Assembly (NCBI RefSeq): GCF_001294455.1
Contig: NZ_LIKT01000006.1
Span: 62,001 to 126,000 of the forward strand
DNA: 64,000 bases
Source of the DNA: Phaeobacter sp. 11ANDIMAR09
GTDB taxonomy: Bacteria; Pseudomonadota; Alphaproteobacteria; Rhodobacterales; Rhodobacteraceae
Direction: 5' to 3'
Below are positions 1,750 through 54,136 of the stretch, piece by piece. Position 1 is the first letter of the stretch. Each line of letters starts with the position of its first letter. Made by a program: the position numbers and the translations under genes. The notes under the pieces were generated by a model. It was not told where the DNA came from and did not search any database. It saw nothing but the letters and a program-made list of their open reading frames with translations.

Positions 1750-2574
1750 CTACAGAGAGAGAGGCATGTGCCGATTTACATCTTTGTAGAGCAGATAGCG
1801 GAAGGGGCCGGGACCGGCGGCATAGCAGGCCTGCGGGCAAAAGGCGCGCAGCCACATGAAATCCCCGGCTTCGACCTCGACCCAGTCCTTGTTCAGCAGA
1901 TAGACCGCCTTACCCTCAAGCACATAGAGCCCGTGCTCCATCACATGGGTCTCTTCAAAGGGAATGACGCCGCCGGGCTGGAAGGTGACGATGGTGACAT
2001 GCATGTCGTGCGACATGTCCTCTGGATCCATAAAGCGGGTGGTGGCCCAGCGTCCCTCGGTGTCAGGCATGGCATTGGGGGCGATGTCCTGCTCGTTGCA
2101 GGTAAAGGCGCGGGGTTTGTCTATGCCGGGGGCGTCCTGCCAGCGTTTGCGGATCCAGTGGAAGTTGGCGCTGGTCTCACTTCTGTTGTGCAGGGTCCAG
2201 TTGCTGCCCGCGGGCAGATAGGCAAAGCTGCCAGATCTAAGGGTCTGAACTGCGCCCTCAATGCTGATTTGCAGGCTGCCTTCGGTGACAAACAGCGCGC
2301 TTTGCGCAGCCTCATCGCTTTCGGGGCTGTCTGAGCCGCCACCGGGCTGCAGTTCGACAATATATTGCGAGAAGGTTTCGGCAAATCCAGTCATTGGCCG
2401 GGCGATGACCCACATGCGCATGCCCCACCATCCCGGCAGGAAAGAGGTGGTGATATCGCGCATGGTGCCGCCGGGCAGCACCGCATAGGCCTCGGTAAAG
2501 ACCGCGCGCCCGGTGAGCAGTTGATCCTGGCCGGGCAGGCCGCCTTTGGGGGTGAAATAGCTGCTCTGGCTCAT
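1750..2574 (-). CDS. (S)-ureidoglycine aminohydrolase-like bicupin
   Basis: A 274-residue bicupin. The C-terminal cupin closely follows E. coli AllE/YlbA: EETHVMEHG at 207-215 and PQACYA at 247-252 supply the expected metal ligands Glu208, His210, His214 and Gln248. AllE-type enzymes release ammonia from (S)-ureidoglycine in allantoin breakdown, using Mn2+. The N-terminal cupin (about 70-135) lacks a full metal set, as is normal for the family. No allantoinase, allantoate amidohydrolase or urate gene is in the window, so the true substrate may be another ureido or amino compound linked to the neighbouring Rieske oxygenase and GS-like ligase. It is on the same strand as the IclR gene, 205 bp downstream of it. 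Confidence 0.75.
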   Translation of the reverse strand: MSQSSYFTPKGGLPGQDQLLTGRAVFTEAYAVLPGGTMRDITTSFLPGWWGMRMWVIARPMTGFAETFSQYIVELQPGGGSDSPESDEAAQSALFVTEGSLQISIEGAVQTLRSGSFAYLPAGSNWTLHNRSETSANFHWIRKRWQDAPGIDKPRAFTCNEQDIAPNAMPDTEGRWATTRFMDPEDMSHDMHVTIVTFQPGGVIPFEETHVMEHGLYVLEGKAVYLLNKDWVEVEAGDFMWLRAFCPQACYAAGPGPFRYLLYKDVNRHMPLSL

Positions 2575-2779
2575 GTCGCGTTCCTATTGCTCGCTGTCCC
2601 GCCAGTGAGGGCAGGTCAGGACCAATATGCGCCTGTCGCGAGGTGGCTCCAAGCGGCGCCGCGCTGATAACAACCTTCGCGTTTTTTTGAAAACGATCCA
2701 TGGTTTGAATAAGATCCTAAAGACCGGGCAGAGGCACAATCAGGCTGCAACTGCACGGCCTTTGAGGCAAGCGGCAGGA

Positions 2780-3556
2780 TCAGAGATCATCAACCGCATG
2801 GGTCTGGCGCAACTCAGCGGCACAGAGCTGCAGCCCCTGCAGCAATTCTTCGGCCTTGGGTCCAGTGGCCAACCCTCCCGGAGCGGAGCTGCCCAGAACC
2901 ACGGGGGTTTTTCCCGGGCGCGACAGGGGCACGGCATAGCCGACAATGCCGGGTTCGAATTCGCTGTCGGTCAGGCAGTAGCCCTGGCTGCGGGCCTGCT
3001 CCACCTGGGCCAGGATCGCCTCCGGGTTCAGTAGCGATTGTACCGTATGCTGCGGGATTTCCGCCCCCTGTACCAGCGCCTCGGCGTCCGCCTGTGGCAG
3101 ACAGCTCATCAGCATTCTGCCAAGGCTGGTATGCAGCAGCGGAATATGCGCGCCGGGGGTAAAGCCATAGGTCACAGGGCCGCCTTCGGTGGTGGATTGC
3201 GCCAGCAACAAGACCCGCCCGCGGTCCAATGTGGCCAGGCTGAGCTCCGCCCCCAGTTTGCGGGCATGTTGGTTCAGCACCGGCTGGACCCGGCGGCCAA
3301 ATTGATTGCCCTGCAAAAACCCGCCGGCCAGCGCCAGAACCCGCGGGGTGAGCGACAGCATGCGCCCCTGTTGGCGCAGATAGCCGGCCTGAACCAGTGT
3401 CAGCGCGCCACGTCGCGCCGTAGCGCGATCTTGATTCGTGCGACGGGCAATTTCCGCCAATGTCATGCAGGGGGTTGCGGCATCGAACACAGCCAGAACA
3501 GATAAGCCTTTGGCAAAGCTGGAAGAAATATTTCGGTCTTGCACGTGTTTGGTCAT
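2780..3556 (-). CDS. IclR-family transcriptional regulator
   Basis: A 258-residue protein with the IclR layout: an N-terminal winged helix-turn-helix (about 12-75, including SSFAKGLSVLAVFD and MTLAEIARRTNQDRATARR) and a C-terminal effector-binding domain (about 80-255, including PLLHTSLGRMLMS and GYCLTDSEFEPGIVGYAVPL). IclR proteins usually control a divergent catabolic operon. This gene diverges from the Rieske oxygenase/GS-like pair with a 166-bp gap and is followed by the bicupin gene, so both are the natural targets. The effector cannot be told from sequence. Confidence 0.88.
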   Translation of the reverse strand: MTKHVQDRNISSSFAKGLSVLAVFDAATPCMTLAEIARRTNQDRATARRGALTLVQAGYLRQQGRMLSLTPRVLALAGGFLQGNQFGRRVQPVLNQHARKLGAELSLATLDRGRVLLLAQSTTEGGPVTYGFTPGAHIPLLHTSLGRMLMSCLPQADAEALVQGAEIPQHTVQSLLNPEAILAQVEQARSQGYCLTDSEFEPGIVGYAVPLSRPGKTPVVLGSSAPGGLATGPKAEELLQGLQLCAAELRQTHAVDDL

Positions 3557-3641
3557 GTGATCCGTCGTCTGTCTTTACTGAAATGATTTTGCTGACCTTG
3601 ACAATGGCCGATACACACAACAAAACTTGATCGTATTTAAT

Positions 3642-3659
3642 AACATATGTTCGTATGTT
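3642..3659. promoter_or_regulatory. palindromic operator candidate between IclR gene and Rieske gene
   Basis: AACATATGTT (3642-3651) is a perfect 10-bp palindrome, and AACATA (3642-3647) is mirrored again by TATGTT (3654-3659). The site sits in the divergent promoter region, in the most AT-rich part of the local sequence. IclR proteins bind palindromes of about this size in such gaps. This is inference from position and symmetry only. Confidence 0.4.
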
Positions 3660-3722
3660 GAACCAAGTCAACTAGGTTAAAATACGTAGCCTTTGATCGC
3701 TCCGCAAAAGAAAGACCCGTCC

Positions 3723-5072
3723 ATGATCAGCCAGGAAATGAACGACAGCCTCACCCGTGTCGGCAAAGGCAGCGATGCCGGAGAGGTCTTGCGGCGGTAT
3801 TGGCAACCGGCAGCGCTCTTGGATGAGCTGGAGGGCGCCCGCCCAGTGGTGCCGGTGCGCCTGCTGGGAGAGGATCTTGTGTTGTTTCGCGACAGTGAGG
3901 GTGAGTTGGGACTGATCGGGCGCCATTGCCCGCATCGCGGTGCGGATATGTGCTTTGGCCGCCTCGAGAACAACGGGCTGCGCTGCCCCTTCCATGGCTG
4001 GCATTTCAACCGTGCAGGCCAATGCGTTGAACAGCCCGGCGAGCCGGAAGGCAGCCGGATGCACAAACAGATCCAAAGCGCCGCCTATCCGGTGGTCGAG
4101 AGAAACGGCATTATCTGGGCCTATATGGGACCGGGGGAGCCTCCGGCTTTTCCGGCGCTCGATTGTTTTCGCGCGCCCACCAGTCATGTCTTTGCCTTCA
4201 AAGGACTCTGGCAGTGCAACTGGCTGCAGGCGATGGAAGTGGGGATTGACCCGGCCCATGCTTCCTTCTTGCATCGGTTCCTGCAGGACGAAGACCCGGC
4301 CGAGGCCTATGGCAAGCAATTCCGCGATACAGCCGGCAATACCGAAATCCCGATGACCAAGCTGTTGCGCGATTTTCCGCGCCCCGAAATCACAGCGGAA
4401 GAGGCGGATCACGGGCTCAGGATCACCGCCCTGCGGCATTTGGGGGATGGGCGCACCCATGTGCGGATCACCAATCAGATCTTCCCCGAGGCGATCTGCA
4501 TTCCGATGTCGCGCGAGATGACCATCACCCAGTGGCATGTGCCGATTGATGATGAGAACTGCTATTGGTATTCGATGTTCACCAGCTTTGATCAACCCGT
4601 AAACAAGGCGCTGATGCGTGAACAGCGCCTGAAAGAGCACCGCCTGCCGGACTATGCGCCGCTGAAGGGGCGTCATAACAACTATGGCTTTGACCCACAG
4701 GAGCAGCAGCGCGAGACCTATACCGGCATGGGGCTGGACATCAACGTGCATGACCAATGGGCCGTGGAAAGCATGGGCGCCATTCAGGACCGCACCCAGG
4801 AGCATCTGGGTAAGTCGGATGTGGCCATCATCCGCTATCGGCGCCAGCTGCGCGCCGCGATTGCGGCGGTCAAGGAGGGGCGGGATCAGGATCTGCCGAT
4901 GTATGGCGGGCTGGATCTTGCGACGCTGTTTGGGCCAATCTCCAACGATTCCATTGCACAGGATGGCGATTGGCAACGGGCCGCGCAGCAGGCAGATCAG
5001 AGCCGCCGGGGCGGCTGTCCTTGGGATGCCAGGGTTGCGCAGGCTGCAGATCAAGACACGGCGCCTGGCTGA
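3723..5072 (+). CDS. Rieske non-heme iron ring-hydroxylating oxygenase, alpha subunit (phthalate dioxygenase type)
   Basis: A 449-residue oxygenase. The Rieske [2Fe-2S] ligands are Cys69, His71, Cys88 and His91 (C-x-H-x16-C-x2-H). The catalytic iron motif is MEVGIDPAHASFLH, giving His179 and His184 as ligands and Asp176 as the electron bridge. Size and layout resemble single-component oxygenases of the phthalate 4,5-dioxygenase/demethylase branch, which act with a separate reductase. No ferredoxin or reductase gene is nearby, so the electron donor must be encoded elsewhere. The first ATG (3723) is used; the frame is open from a TTG at 3693, but neither has a strong ribosome site. A GS-like ligase gene follows 152 bp downstream. 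The substrate is unknown. Confidence 0.85.
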   Translation: MISQEMNDSLTRVGKGSDAGEVLRRYWQPAALLDELEGARPVVPVRLLGEDLVLFRDSEGELGLIGRHCPHRGADMCFGRLENNGLRCPFHGWHFNRAGQCVEQPGEPEGSRMHKQIQSAAYPVVERNGIIWAYMGPGEPPAFPALDCFRAPTSHVFAFKGLWQCNWLQAMEVGIDPAHASFLHRFLQDEDPAEAYGKQFRDTAGNTEIPMTKLLRDFPRPEITAEEADHGLRITALRHLGDGRTHVRITNQIFPEAICIPMSREMTITQWHVPIDDENCYWYSMFTSFDQPVNKALMREQRLKEHRLPDYAPLKGRHNNYGFDPQEQQRETYTGMGLDINVHDQWAVESMGAIQDRTQEHLGKSDVAIIRYRRQLRAAIAAVKEGRDQDLPMYGGLDLATLFGPISNDSIAQDGDWQRAAQQADQSRRGGCPWDARVAQAADQDTAPG

Positions 5073-5224
5073 AGTGCTGCCTATTCCCAGAGCAAAGGGG
5101 GATTACCTTACGGCAGAATTACCGCGCTGCCCGGTGCAGGGCGCTATTGCTAGTGACCTTCAACGCGCACAGCGGCAGGATGCCCCCAAGGTGAACCACT
5201 AGCCGCAAAGGACATGACGACGCA

Positions 5225-6685
5225 ATGACTTATGATCTGGCAACAGGGCGACTGGCCCGCAGGGGGCTGCTTGAGTCACAGGCGTTGCAACAGGCGCAGG
5301 CGGTTCTGGACGCTGCCAAGGCGGCCGGGATTGAAACCCTGCGTGTGCTCTTTGTCGATCAGCACGGCATCCTGCGGGGCAAAACCCTGGTGGCAGATGC
5401 CTTTGCCGGATTGTTTCGCACCGGGCTCAACATGCCCTCGACATTGTTGTTGAAAGATACCTCGCATCGCACCGCCTTTGGCGTCTGGGAGGGCGAACAG
5501 GGCGGTGACGTGGAGGGCTTTGTGCCGATGCGGGGCGCTGGGGATGTGCTGCTGGTGCCGCGCCCCGAAACATTTCGGGTGCTGCCTTGGTCGTCGCATT
5601 CCGCCTGGATCCTCTGCGATCCGGTGCAAAACGATGGCAGCGCCATCAGCTTTTCCTCAACCCAGGTTCTGCGCCATGCCATCGGCAGTCTGGATGCGCA
5701 GGGCCTGGAGGCGGTGTTTGGCCTTGAGGTGGAATTCCAGATCTTTGAACGGCTGGACCCGGCGCTGGACCATTGGCAGGGCAGTATGCCCGGCGCGCCG
5801 GTGGCAACCCGTAACCTGACACAGGGCCATCAGTTTCTGACCGAAAGCCGCTATAGCGACTGCGAGGCGGTGCTGGATGACATCCGCCGCAATGCGCAAG
5901 GATTGGGCCTGCAGCTGCGCTCGGTCGAGATCGAGATGGGACCAAGCCAATTCGAATTCACCTTTGCGCCGCTGCCTGCGCTGGAGCAGGCCGATGCCAT
6001 GGTGATGTTCCGCACCATGGTCAAAGAGGTCTGCGCCCGCGCAGGGTTGCACGCCAGCTTTATGGCGAAGCCGCGGCTGGAAAACGCCATGGCCAATGGC
6101 TGGCACCTGCATCAGTCACTGGTAGAGCGCAGCTCTGGGCGCAACCTCTTTGAACCCGCAGCTGATGGCAGTCTCAGTGCGCAGGCCTCGGGCTGGATTG
6201 CCGGACTGCTAAATCACGCGGCGGAATGCTCGCTGATGATTGCACCGACGGTGAACAGCTACAAACGCTATCTGCCCTATCAACTGGCGCCGGACCGCAT
6301 TCAATGGGGGCAGGACAATCGCGGCGCCATGCTGCGGGCCTTGATGCAGCCCAATGATGCCGCTTCGCGTATTGAAAACCGCGCGCCAGACAGTTCGGCC
6401 AACCCCTATTATGCCATTGCGGCGCAAATCCTTGCAGGCTCGGCCGGGATGGCGGCGGGGCTTCAGGCTCCGGCCCCGACCACCTCGCCCTACGGTGCAG
6501 GAGCGGAGCGTCTGCCACGCTCGCTGGGGCAGGCCTTGGAGGGGTTTTCCTCCTCAGAACTTTTTGCCAGCAGCCTGGGTGCGGAGTTTGTCAGCTACTT
6601 AACCCAGCTCAAGCGCTTTGAATGGAATCGCTACCTCAATACCGTCAGCGAGTGGGAGCAGGCGGAGTATTTCAACCTGTTCTGA
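5225..6685 (+). CDS. glutamine synthetase-like ligase (gamma-glutamyl-amine ligase type)
   Basis: A 486-residue GSI-fold protein. Metal-binding acidic residues are seen in LEVEFQIF (about 167-174) and EIEMGPSQFEFTF (about 235-247). The glutamate-site motif NGWHLHQS (291-298) is a variant of the canonical N-G-x-G-M-H-x-H and lacks part of the glycine-rich loop. The C-terminal ATP/cation motif appears as RIENRAPDSSANPYY. The adenylylation motif of true GlnA is not evident. Such divergent family members often glutamylate amines other than ammonia, such as putrescine, isopropylamine or aniline. Pairing with a Rieske oxygenase recalls aniline degradation, where a GS-like enzyme makes gamma-glutamylanilide for a Rieske dioxygenase. 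The substrate here is not known. Confidence 0.82.
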   Translation: MTYDLATGRLARRGLLESQALQQAQAVLDAAKAAGIETLRVLFVDQHGILRGKTLVADAFAGLFRTGLNMPSTLLLKDTSHRTAFGVWEGEQGGDVEGFVPMRGAGDVLLVPRPETFRVLPWSSHSAWILCDPVQNDGSAISFSSTQVLRHAIGSLDAQGLEAVFGLEVEFQIFERLDPALDHWQGSMPGAPVATRNLTQGHQFLTESRYSDCEAVLDDIRRNAQGLGLQLRSVEIEMGPSQFEFTFAPLPALEQADAMVMFRTMVKEVCARAGLHASFMAKPRLENAMANGWHLHQSLVERSSGRNLFEPAADGSLSAQASGWIAGLLNHAAECSLMIAPTVNSYKRYLPYQLAPDRIQWGQDNRGAMLRALMQPNDAASRIENRAPDSSANPYYAIAAQILAGSAGMAAGLQAPAPTTSPYGAGAERLPRSLGQALEGFSSSELFASSLGAEFVSYLTQLKRFEWNRYLNTVSEWEQAEYFNLF

Positions 6686-6790
6686 TCCGCTTTTATCTGG
6701 TTCAAGATTGTTATGAGTAAAAGCGACAAATCGGTGCGCATTTGCGCCTTGAACGCCTGTTATGGCGCTGGTACTTGTGGACCTGCGTAT

Positions 6791-6978
6791 TGGGGAGAAC
6801 CGGTGCTGCGTTTTTGAGCGTTTGCTTATCTGCGCAAGTCCGGTGCCGAAGGAGCAACCGCCCCGGAAACTCTCAGGCAGCAGGGACCTTATGCGCGCTA
6901 AAGACTCTGGAGAGAGCCTGTGAAACCCATAGGCCGCCGAAGGGATAACGATCTCAGGCACCTGGACAGAGGGGGCAT
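6791..6978 (+). promoter_or_regulatory. tandem glycine riboswitch (two aptamers) upstream of gcvH-gcvP
   Basis: Two copies of the glycine-aptamer signature lie in series. Aptamer 1 (about 6791-6889) has GGGGAGAACC, GCCGAAGGAGCAACC (6846-6860) and AAACTCTCAGGCA (6868-6880). Aptamer 2 (about 6904-6978) has GGAGAGAGCC, GCCGAAGGGATAAC (6937-6950) and ATCTCAGGCACC, closing with GGACAGAGG. This class normally switches on glycine cleavage genes when glycine is high. The aptamers end about 180 bases before gcvH; no further gene fits in that leader. Confidence 0.92.
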
Positions 6979-7158
6979 CAGACCGGGCGGCCGTCCTCTT
7001 TGGGGCGGGGCGCGAAGATGCCGGAGTGACTTGACCAGATCCCACTGATCAAGCCGGCCCCAGTTTTCGGCACTCTGCCCAGGGATTGGCAAGGGACCGG
7101 AAGGCCAGATCAAACCACCGGGCAGGCGCACCGGGGCAAGCAATAGGGGATAAGACAG

Positions 7159-7518
7159 ATGAAATTTACCGAAGAACACGAATGGCTGGACGTGGACGGC
7201 GATATTGTGACCGTGGGGATCACGGCCCATGCCGCCGAGCAGCTGGGCGATGTGGTCTTTATCGAGCTGCCCGAGGTCGGCGACGAATTTGCCAAGGATG
7301 ATGAGATCGTGGTGATTGAATCGGTCAAGGCCGCCTCTGACATCCTGTCGCCGCTGGACGGCGAAGTGGTCGAGGTCAACGCCGCCCTGACCGAGACCCC
7401 CGGCAAGGTGAATGAAGACCCACAGGGCGATGCCTGGTTCTTCAAGCTCAAGGTCGAAGACATGTCACCCATGGACGACTATATGGAAGAAGCCGCCTAT
7501 AAGGACTTCATCGGTTAA
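7159..7518 (+). CDS. gcvH: glycine cleavage system H protein
   Basis: A 119-residue lipoyl carrier that shuttles the aminomethyl group from glycine between the P, T and L proteins. The lipoylated lysine is Lys57 in the signature [10 protein letters not shown]. The N-terminus [10 protein letters not shown] and C-terminus are typical, so it is full length. It is the first gene after the tandem glycine riboswitch, where many alphaproteobacteria have gcvT first. A terminator-like hairpin separates it from gcvP. Confidence 0.96.
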
Positions 7519-52210: not shown

Positions 52211-54136
52211 TTGGGAAACGCACGTAACATCGCCTTCTGGGTTGTTCTGTTTGTCTTGATCCTGGCGCTGTTCAATCTGTTCAGTGGCTCAGGCGGTACG
52301 ATGCAGAGCAACGAACGCTCTTTCTCTGATTTTGTTGCCTCAGTCGAAGGTGGACAGGTCAGCACTGTGGTGCTGGACGGGGAGCAGGTTCGCTTTTCGA
52401 CCTCTGACGGACAGAACTATGTGACCATCCGGCCCTCTGATGCCGAAGTCACCGAGTTGCTGATCAAGAACAACATTCCGGTGCGGGCTGAAAAGCAGCA
52501 GCAATCTGGGTTCCAGTCCTTTTTGATTACCTTGCTGCCTTTCGTGCTGCTGATTGGTGTCTGGATCTATTTTATGAACCGGATGCAGGGCGGTGGCAAA
52601 GGTGGGGCCATGGGCTTTGGCAAATCCAAGGCCAAGATGCTGACGGAAAAGCATGGCCGCGTCACCTTTGATGATGTGGCGGGCATTGATGAGGCCAAGG
52701 AAGAGCTGGAAGAGATCGTGGAATTCCTGCGCAACCCGCAGAAATTCTCGCGGCTCGGCGGCAAGATCCCCAAGGGCGCTCTGCTGGTGGGCCCTCCCGG
52801 CACTGGTAAAACGCTGCTGGCCCGCGCGATTGCAGGTGAGGCGGGGGTGCCGTTCTTCACCATTTCGGGCTCTGACTTTGTTGAGATGTTTGTCGGGGTC
52901 GGTGCCTCTCGCGTGCGCGACATGTTTGAACAGGCCAAGAAGAACGCCCCCTGTATTGTCTTTATCGATGAGATCGACGCTGTTGGCCGTCATCGTGGTG
53001 CTGGCTATGGCGGTGGCAATGATGAGCGCGAGCAGACCCTGAACCAGCTCTTGGTTGAGATGGACGGCTTTGAGGCCAATGAAGGCGTCATCATCCTGGC
53101 TGCGACCAACCGAAAGGATGTGCTGGACCCAGCCCTGCTGCGTCCGGGTCGTTTTGACCGCAACGTGACCGTTGGCAACCCCGACATCAAGGGCCGCGAA
53201 AAGATCCTCGGCGTGCATGCCCGCAAGACCCCGCTGGGTCCGGACGTCGATCTGCGCATCATTGCCCGTGGCACGCCTGGGTTCTCGGGCGCGGATCTGG
53301 CCAACCTGGTCAACGAATCTGCGCTGATGGCTGCCCGCGTTGGCCGCCGCTTTGTCACCATGGAGGATTTTGAATCCGCCAAGGATAAGGTGATGATGGG
53401 CGCCGAACGTCGCTCGATGGTGCTGACCCAGGACCAAAAGGAAAAAACTGCCTATCACGAGGCGGGCCATGCGGTTGTTGGTCTGGAGCTGCCGCTCTGC
53501 GATCCGGTCTACAAGGCGACCATCATTCCCCGCGGCGGTGCCCTGGGGATGGTTGTCTCGTTGCCGGAAATGGACCGTCTCAACTATCACCGCGATGAAT
53601 GCGAACAAAAGCTGGCCATGACCATGGCGGGCAAGGCTGCGGAAGTGATCAAATACGGTGAAGATCATGTCTCCAACGGCCCTGCCGGCGATATCCAGCA
53701 GGCTTCGGCCCTGGCGCGGGCCATGGTGTTGCAGTGGGGCATGTCCGACAAGGTGGGCAATATCGACTACCGCGAAGCGGCAGAAGGCTATTCTGGCAAT
53801 ACCGCAGGTTTCTCGGTCTCCGCCCATACCAAGGAGCTGATTGAGGAAGAGGTGAAACGCTTCATCCAGACTGGCTATGACCGGGCCTTGCAGATCCTCA
53901 CTGACAAGAATGAGGAATGGGAACGTCTGGCCAAGGGGCTGTTGGAATATGAAACCCTGACTGGTGATGAGATCAAGCGGGTCATGAAGGGGGAGCCGCC
54001 GCATGAGAAGGGCGACGACTCCGACGAGGATCAGGGCAATGCTTCGGTCACGGCGATTCCTAAGGCCAAGCCGAAGAAGCCCTCTCCCGATGGAGAAGGT
54101 GGCGAGAGTGGGCTGGAGCCCGAGCCGACCTCCTAA
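52211..54136 (+). CDS. ftsH: ATP-dependent zinc metalloprotease FtsH
   Basis: A 641-residue membrane AAA protease. Two membrane helices (about 5-22 and 100-118) flank a periplasmic domain. Walker A is GPPGTGKT, the second region of homology follows, and the zinc site is His416-Glu417-Ala-Gly-His420. A TTG at 52211 is chosen as the start because AGGAG at 52199-52203 is well placed and the product then begins [11 protein letters not shown], as in relatives; a GTG at 52142 would add 23 residues. The C-terminal tail is charged and low complexity. Confidence 0.96.

Follow-up and report, generated by a model that had tools for sequence, protein, structure and literature searches.

Introduction

What do a glutamine synthetase (GS)-like ligase and a Rieske oxygenase do when their genes lie side by side in a roseobacter genome, and do the two genes next to them belong to the same system? 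The question is raised by a 64,000-nucleotide stretch of the genome of Phaeobacter sp. 11ANDIMAR09 (contig NZ_LIKT01000006.1, positions 62,001 to 126,000 of the forward strand), which is called the window here. On its minus strand are a bicupin gene (1750-2574) and the gene of an IclR-type regulator with an IclR helix-turn-helix and a C-terminal domain (2780-3556); divergent from the latter, on the plus strand, are the genes for an alpha-only Rieske oxygenase (3723-5072), designated ROx, and for the GS-like ligase (5225-6685), designated GSL. A preliminary description of the DNA had reported these four genes, whose presence and order are confirmed by the positions of the open reading frames (ORFs) and by their Pfam and NCBIfam families, and had read them as one possible pathway. 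We find that the four genes look like two neighbouring systems, and that the true unit is the IclR gene with the ROx-GSL pair. As for its function, we favour the view that ROx and GSL, under the divergent IclR regulator, carry out a two-enzyme step that opens an acidic arylamine, most likely converting 4-aminobenzoate to protocatechuate.

A conserved oxygenase-ligase pair

The comparisons rest mainly on 81 ROx loci, namely the window's own and those of 80 other contigs. In 79 of the 80 contig loci GSL follows ROx on the same strand, with the ends of the tblastn matches at most 700 bp apart, and the same arrangement is seen in 17 of 18 same-family genomes and in 19 of 20 genomes drawn from the whole phylum; the three samples overlap in part, and the loci without GSL after ROx are L082, L025 and L169. 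Because the neighbourhood beyond the two genes varies from genus to genus, ROx and GSL behave as a pair. This conservation upholds the earlier suggestion that a GS-like ligase beside a Rieske oxygenase forms the core of an arylamine-type system. With a threshold of 55% identity, ROx itself is present in 21 of the 398 Pseudomonadota genomes compared, and nine of these 21 matches come from a single genus, in the same class, whose genomes are large. Within the family, 19 of 149 genomes have ROx at 59% identity or higher. The pair is also found on plasmids: among the best 40 of 85 plasmid records, 13 encode a ROx homologue that is 58-63% identical, in every case together with a GSL, and the other 27 reach 41% identity or less.

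A ligase with a lysine at the tunnel mouth

The best match of GSL in the PDB is 8wwu (E 3.5e-89), which is NpaA1 (PMC11335346). GSL has the GS catalytic domain (Pfam Gln-synt_C). With 216.8 bits it lies far below the NCBIfam cut-off for GlnA (429 bits), and it stays well under all five curated GS models matched. In a tree of 47 rows, GSL falls into a clade of 39 rows (support 100/100) together with SadB-type rows, NpaA1, the SA1 protein and the ligase of pNB8c, which we take to be DcaQ; inside this clade, support for the group of window-type rows is good (96/100). Outside it stand PuuA, IpuC and six paralogues from the organism's own genome, including its own GlnA, several of these outside rows being long-branched and of unsure order. 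The tree rules out an assignment of GSL to the GlnA, PuuA or IpuC type; the cut-offs do so as well in the case of GlnA and the putrescine ligase. The preliminary description had proposed exactly such a placement of the GS-like protein as a check, and the grouping with GlnA that would have spoken against it is absent.

By the GS residue numbering that we assume to apply, all six metal ligands of GS are kept in GSL, and the Asp of the ammonium site is replaced (P71), as it is in NpaA1. In the latter enzyme Phe75, Phe86 and Trp235 form a tunnel bottleneck for neutral arylamines (PMC11335346). The position of Phe75 holds Phe in all six rows of the NpaA1 branch, of which only two, NpaA1 and the pNB8c ligase, are known from an arylamine context, and Lys in every one of the 80 rows of the SadB and window types, 79 of which are distinct; in the window the residue is Lys77. 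This comparison covers 68 of the 77 called orthologues, namely those over 440 aa, one of which is the window again. The Phe75/Lys position and Asp107 are the only ones with a charged residue fixed in one set and absent from the other. A Lys at the tunnel mouth would suit a ring that bears an acidic group, and GSL is probably a gamma-glutamyl arylamine ligase for an acidic arylamine. The switch from Phe to Lys could offer a simple rule by which to distinguish, at the sequence level, ligases for neutral anilines from those for acidic arylamines.

An oxygenase of the phthalate dioxygenase type

ROx consists of a single alpha subunit of the phthalate dioxygenase/LigXa type, with a Rieske domain and a LigXa_C domain. 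It belongs to the same family as the phthalate and isophthalate dioxygenases (PDB 7fjl and 9ina) and the LigXa_C oxygenases, with which it has a carboxylate-binding Arg in common. This residue, R248, is invariant across 14 aligned sequences (L038 and L047, which have a stop codon in the stretch, were left aside) and aligns, by a numbering offset of 23 derived from the printed alignment, with R234 of isophthalate dioxygenase, which binds the carboxylate and is required for activity (PMC12445078). The ORF of ROx spans 3693-5072, and the ATG at 3723 is the start of the aligned orthologues. We know of no phthalate or isophthalate dioxygenase that is paired with a GS-like ligase.

The regulator and its putative operator

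A divergent IclR homologue lies within 1.5 kb upstream of ROx in 42 of the 80 contig loci, 9 of the 18 same-family genomes and 14 of the 20 phylum-wide genomes. The best subfamily match of the window's regulator is PcaR/PcaU/PobR (TIGR02431), at 172 bits and under the curated cut-off of 284.75 bits. Across 29 IclR-ROx intergenic stretches, the short ones of L072, L073, L078 and L096 having been omitted, we found a 15-bp imperfect palindrome of the approximate form GTTCGTTATACGAAC (variants beginning GTGCG are likewise common), which lies 40-90 bp before the ROx start in 25 of the 29. Its information is 16.1 bits, as against a mean of 7.3 and a maximum of 8.0 bits in 20 shuffled sets treated with the same seed; the seed was a motif picked by eye, and several of the 29 stretches come from close relatives. 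The best site in the whole window, at 3649-3663 (16.6 bits; assigned to neither strand), lies in the intergenic stretch between IclR and ROx, itself one of the 29 training stretches. We infer that IclR binds at this palindrome and governs ROx and GSL. A second site, at 52388-52402 (16.0 bits), is found within a gene that looks by eye like ftsH, and may be due to chance.

Relation to the sulfanilate and aniline systems

The nearest described relatives are the sad genes for the degradation of sulfanilate (4-aminobenzenesulfonate), reportedly cloned by Gan et al. in 2012. Plasmid pSA3 of Novosphingobium resinovorum SA1 carries an oxygenase, a GSL, a small protein resembling 5-carboxymethyl-2-hydroxymuconate isomerase (CHMI), a ferredoxin and a reductase, with a maleylacetate reductase about 2 kb away and pcaH about 40 kb away. 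The window ROx is 60.6% identical over 92% to the SA1 plasmid oxygenase, and GSL is 43% identical to the ligase. According to PMC5632844, SA1 degrades 4-aminobenzenesulfonate, and in Hydrogenophaga intermedia PBC sadA encodes the dioxygenase, sadB the glutamine synthetase and sadC the ferredoxin; its authors suppose that the original substrate of the sad genes was a related natural compound. The SA1 plasmid genes would presumably be its own sad genes; for Hydrogenophaga the comparison is with the genes as described in that paper.

Like the sad system, the window pair joins an oxygenase to a GS-like partner, and the Lys at the ligase tunnel is common to the SadB-type rows; the two differ in that the window GSL forms a clade apart from those rows, with which it is 43-47% identical. 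Moreover, the sad operon has genes for a ferredoxin and also a reductase, whereas the window pair has none alongside it and no 4-sulfocatechol genes were seen beside it. Because ferredoxin and reductase genes are missing there, we call the pair SadAB-like and not a sad operon. Both genes do lie beside the pair in five relatives, in L117 and L144 and, after GSL, in L134, L135 and L137; the fetched stretches of L134, L135 and L137 also hold an amidotransferase-type gene, and L144 has the ferredoxin and reductase only.

In the aniline and naphthylamine systems (AtdA, TdnQ/DcaQ, NpaA1) the amine is gamma-glutamylated before Rieske oxygenation, as we propose for the window pair, and their ligases fall into the same clade as GSL, which is 34-38% identical to NpaA1 and the pNB8c ligase. 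The Atd, Tdn and Npa clusters differ in having alpha and beta oxygenase subunits and a glutamine amidotransferase gene, whereas the window pair has neither a beta subunit nor an amidotransferase, and in the Phe that NpaA1-type ligases carry at the tunnel where the window has Lys. The pair is a variant of the sadAB kind and probably a natural aminobenzoate system. The statement of the preliminary description that its gene set matched no described pathway is therefore half true, since the ROx-GSL core is of the type published in PMC5632844.

The proposed reaction and its substrate

That the substrate is an acidic arylamine is well supported by the GSL clade, the tunnel Lys, the carboxylate-binding Arg of ROx and the link to sulfanilate. 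In the reaction that we propose, GSL would use ATP and glutamate to form the gamma-glutamyl amide of an acidic aromatic amine, most likely 4-aminobenzoate, and ROx would then add O2 across the carbon that bears the nitrogen and its neighbour. The oxygenated product would shed glutamine and regain its aromatic ring as a catechol-type acid, protocatechuate being the likeliest, and this acid could proceed to ring cleavage by PcaHG or LigAB. The electrons for ROx would come from a ferredoxin and a reductase encoded elsewhere in the genome, where the best homologue of the L117 reductase (L205) is found on contig 17 at 38% identity. A CHMI-like protein may, at a guess, help the final tautomerisation in some relatives. 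It is encoded after GSL in L071, L075, L103, L106, L113, L132, L133, L143 and L175 and before IclR in L091, is 111-117 aa long, and matches the Pfam model of the isomerase marginally (26.5-30.3 bits against a cut-off of 26.5 in the five scanned).

The case for 4-aminobenzoate in particular is circumstantial. In Palleronia pcaHGCDB lies beside GSL, and genes labelled by eye as box-type lie beside the pair in L083 and L087. An arylamine N-acetyltransferase family gene directly follows GSL in L078 (12887-13690), L086 and L108; the one of the three that was scanned, in L078, is over the Pfam cut-off and under the NCBIfam equivalog cut-off. LigA is matched in six of the seven ROx-bearing genomes lacking pcaH, compared with 2 of 14 such genomes without ROx (above the cut-off, 4 of 7 versus 1 of 14). 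Where the 19 ROx-bearing genomes of the family are compared with 41 that lack ROx, these 41 were taken from the 130 in order of handle number, with G020 and G030 skipped for their 38-40% homologues; several such tests use the same genomes and are uncorrected for multiple testing or phylogeny.

A number of observations weigh against this assignment. The gene pcaH is not enriched with ROx (12 of 19 versus 81 of 130 genomes), and the strict union of pcaH or ligA gives 16 of 19 versus 28 of 41 (p=0.23), reaching p=0.045 only when sub-cut-off matches are counted. The join between the SadB-type and window-type GSL rows is weak (80/73), no gamma-glutamyl hydrolase gene lies beside the pair in the window, and no ferredoxin was found within the 1.5 kb flanks of the reductase homologue on contig 17. 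Finally, relatives in which the pair lies beside a 3-hydroxyanthranilate dioxygenase, a cytosine deaminase, or ureidoglycolate lyase and hydantoinase genes hint at other substrates. As a separate observation, two pcaH genes are present in 3 of the 19 genomes with ROx (G092, G128 and G137) and in 1 of the 130 others (p=0.007).

Other substrates

An alternative of this last kind, which we consider unlikely although it retains some weight, is that the same chemistry acts on a different acidic arylamine or on an aminophenol (examples are anthranilate, 3-aminobenzoate and 4-amino-3-hydroxybenzoate) and leads to ring cleavage of the 3-hydroxyanthranilate type. A gene of the 3-hydroxyanthranilate 3,4-dioxygenase family does lie directly after GSL in L102, L107, L112, L116 and L121 (one of them scanned); in G062 and G139 such a gene is found about 8.5 kb and 10.7 kb, respectively, from ROx. 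The enzyme is over its cut-off in 6 of 19 genomes with ROx as against 4 of 41 without (p=0.06). It is not over the cut-off in the other 13 of the 19, which include the window's own genome, and the nearest relatives with a reported substrate use a para-substituted acid, 4-aminobenzenesulfonate (PMC5632844).

It is much less likely that the pair attacks the exocyclic amine of a heterocycle of the purine or pyrimidine type, which would explain its purine, cytosine deaminase and hydantoinase neighbours. A urate cluster adjoins the pair in G095 and in the lineage of the window, a cytosine deaminase gene is 6-10 kb away in L131, what looks by eye like a cytosine-deaminase-like amidohydrolase gene is next to ROx in L101, and genes of the ureidoglycolate lyase and hydantoinase/oxoprolinase types are near the pair in L037 (1213-5080) and L132 (16429-20353). 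However, most of the 81 loci, whose neighbours are partly annotated, show no such genes among the recognised families, and the GSL clade, Lys77 and the family of ROx point to acidic anilines.

The bicupin and the urate cluster

In the preliminary description's own proposal, bicupin, IclR, ROx and GSL act jointly and the bicupin frees ammonia from an oxidised, nitrogen-rich ring product. The bicupin gene is on the strand of the IclR gene, 205 bp past it, and its translation shows by eye the pattern E-T-H-x3-H ... Q that we take to be the metal-binding motif. Its product scores 496 bits against the equivalog-level NCBIfam cut-off of 445 for (S)-ureidoglycine aminohydrolase. In the 10 kb to the left of the window (L031) the genes run in the order membrane urate oxidase, a LysR-type gene (by eye), hydroxyisourate hydrolase, an allantoinase-OHCU decarboxylase fusion, ureidoglycolate lyase and xanthine permease; a gene resembling glyceraldehyde-3-phosphate dehydrogenase (GAPDH), a small ORF and the bicupin follow. 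In the pathway, ureidoglycine aminohydrolase is expected to act directly before ureidoglycolate lyase. We found no difference between the window bicupin and an ordinary (S)-ureidoglycine aminohydrolase: it is over the curated cut-offs and lies amid urate and allantoin genes.

Some points speak for joint action. The bicupin is in view in 18 of the 81 ROx loci, 1.0 to 5.9 kb from ROx; two of these, L092 and L096, show no purine gene or permease in the fetched stretches, unlike the other 16, and G095 has a second arrangement with bicupin next to an allantoinase gene beside GSL and ROx. Against this, the bicupin is not in view in 63 loci, and in 41 of them the stretch before ROx is visible for 7 kb or more. 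The synteny that the preliminary description suggested checking for all four genes holds for ROx and GSL and is not supported for the bicupin. Among the same-family genomes the bicupin is as common without ROx (37 of 41) as with it (18 of 19; 55 of 60 overall). An allantoinase match (E 1e-80 or better; two are below the curated cut-off) accompanies it in all 55 genomes, lying within 12.5 kb in 42 of them, among which are 30 of the 37 without ROx. Nor did the motif scan find an operator-like site ahead of the bicupin, the best one between IclR and bicupin having 4.7 bits, which lends no support to the supposed sharing of the regulator. The four-gene module is rejected on the ROx-independent occurrence of the bicupin, its linkage to allantoinase and the operator scan, and we give it very little probability. 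Because the cut-off is passed, the context is that of urate genes and the frequency is equal with and without ROx, the bicupin is most likely an ordinary (S)-ureidoglycine aminohydrolase that goes with the urate cluster next to it and serves allantoin breakdown outside the ROx-GSL unit.

That the pair is strictly a sulfanilate 3,4-dioxygenase system is equally improbable, for although the identities to the SA1 plasmid genes and the common Lys77 favour it, the window GSL has its own clade beside the SadB type, the pair is spread broadly among genomes, marine ones included, in whose settings one would not expect sulfanilate, and PMC5632844 itself takes a natural analogue to have been the original substrate.

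A split oxygenase in relatives

The window ROx is of the ordinary fused form. At nine other loci (L048, L049, L132, L133 and L175-L179) the protein homologous to ROx comprises about 409 aa with the catalytic part and lacks the stretch that holds the Rieske ligands; directly upstream of it, in all nine, a separate small Rieske protein with an intact CxH...CxxH motif is encoded (132 and 141 aa where a start was called). The two genes span 8865-10516 in L048, 989-2652 in L049, 12819-14492 in L132 and 1909-3576 in L133. In the one pair scanned, that of L132, the small protein has the Pfam Rieske domain; the large one has no Rieske match and is recognised by LigXa_C and other related catalytic models. 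At these loci the Rieske domain is, as predicted from the genes, a separate protein. GSL is in view at eight of the nine; a third small protein with no Pfam or NCBIfam match is in view at six. A homologue is present in 43 of 390 genomes sampled from the order: five of the matches extend over the whole protein and belong to the split kind, and the other 38 begin only at residue 79-92, like the fused kind. Judged by title, none of the papers listed in a search for such a split Rieske oxygenase deals with one.

Neighbouring genes

To the right of GSL come gcvH and a gene that looks by eye like gcvP. No gcvT lies between GSL and gcvH here (6685-7159), where L055 and L057 have a gcvT-like gene (by eye); the organism's only gcvT match over the cut-off is on contig C5. 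To the left of the bicupin, after the small ORF, is the GAPDH-like gene beside the urate cluster (111-1097), which is below the cut-offs of all ten NCBIfam models matched; a GAPDH-family gene is in view in 21 of the 81 ROx loci.

Significance

An apparent four-gene pathway has been resolved into two systems, and the ligase-oxygenase pair has been given a testable job. We put forward more tentatively, as something short of an even chance, that there is a widespread natural route in which 4-aminobenzoate passes through its gamma-glutamyl amide and a lone Rieske oxygenase to protocatechuate and glutamine, that this route was the natural stock from which the degradation of the xenobiotic sulfanilate arose, and that the split oxygenase marks a sister branch. 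Among the open-access papers listed, none describes in its title or abstract a 4-aminobenzoate route of the ligase-oxygenase type; a 4-aminobenzoate cluster reportedly published for Paraburkholderia terrae was not among them. 4-Aminobenzoate is both a precursor and a breakdown product of folate. If it is the substrate, this way of using an aromatic amine related to folate would be common to marine roseobacters and further Pseudomonadota, and the finding would bear on the natural substrate of the sad-type genes, a matter that PMC5632844 leaves open.

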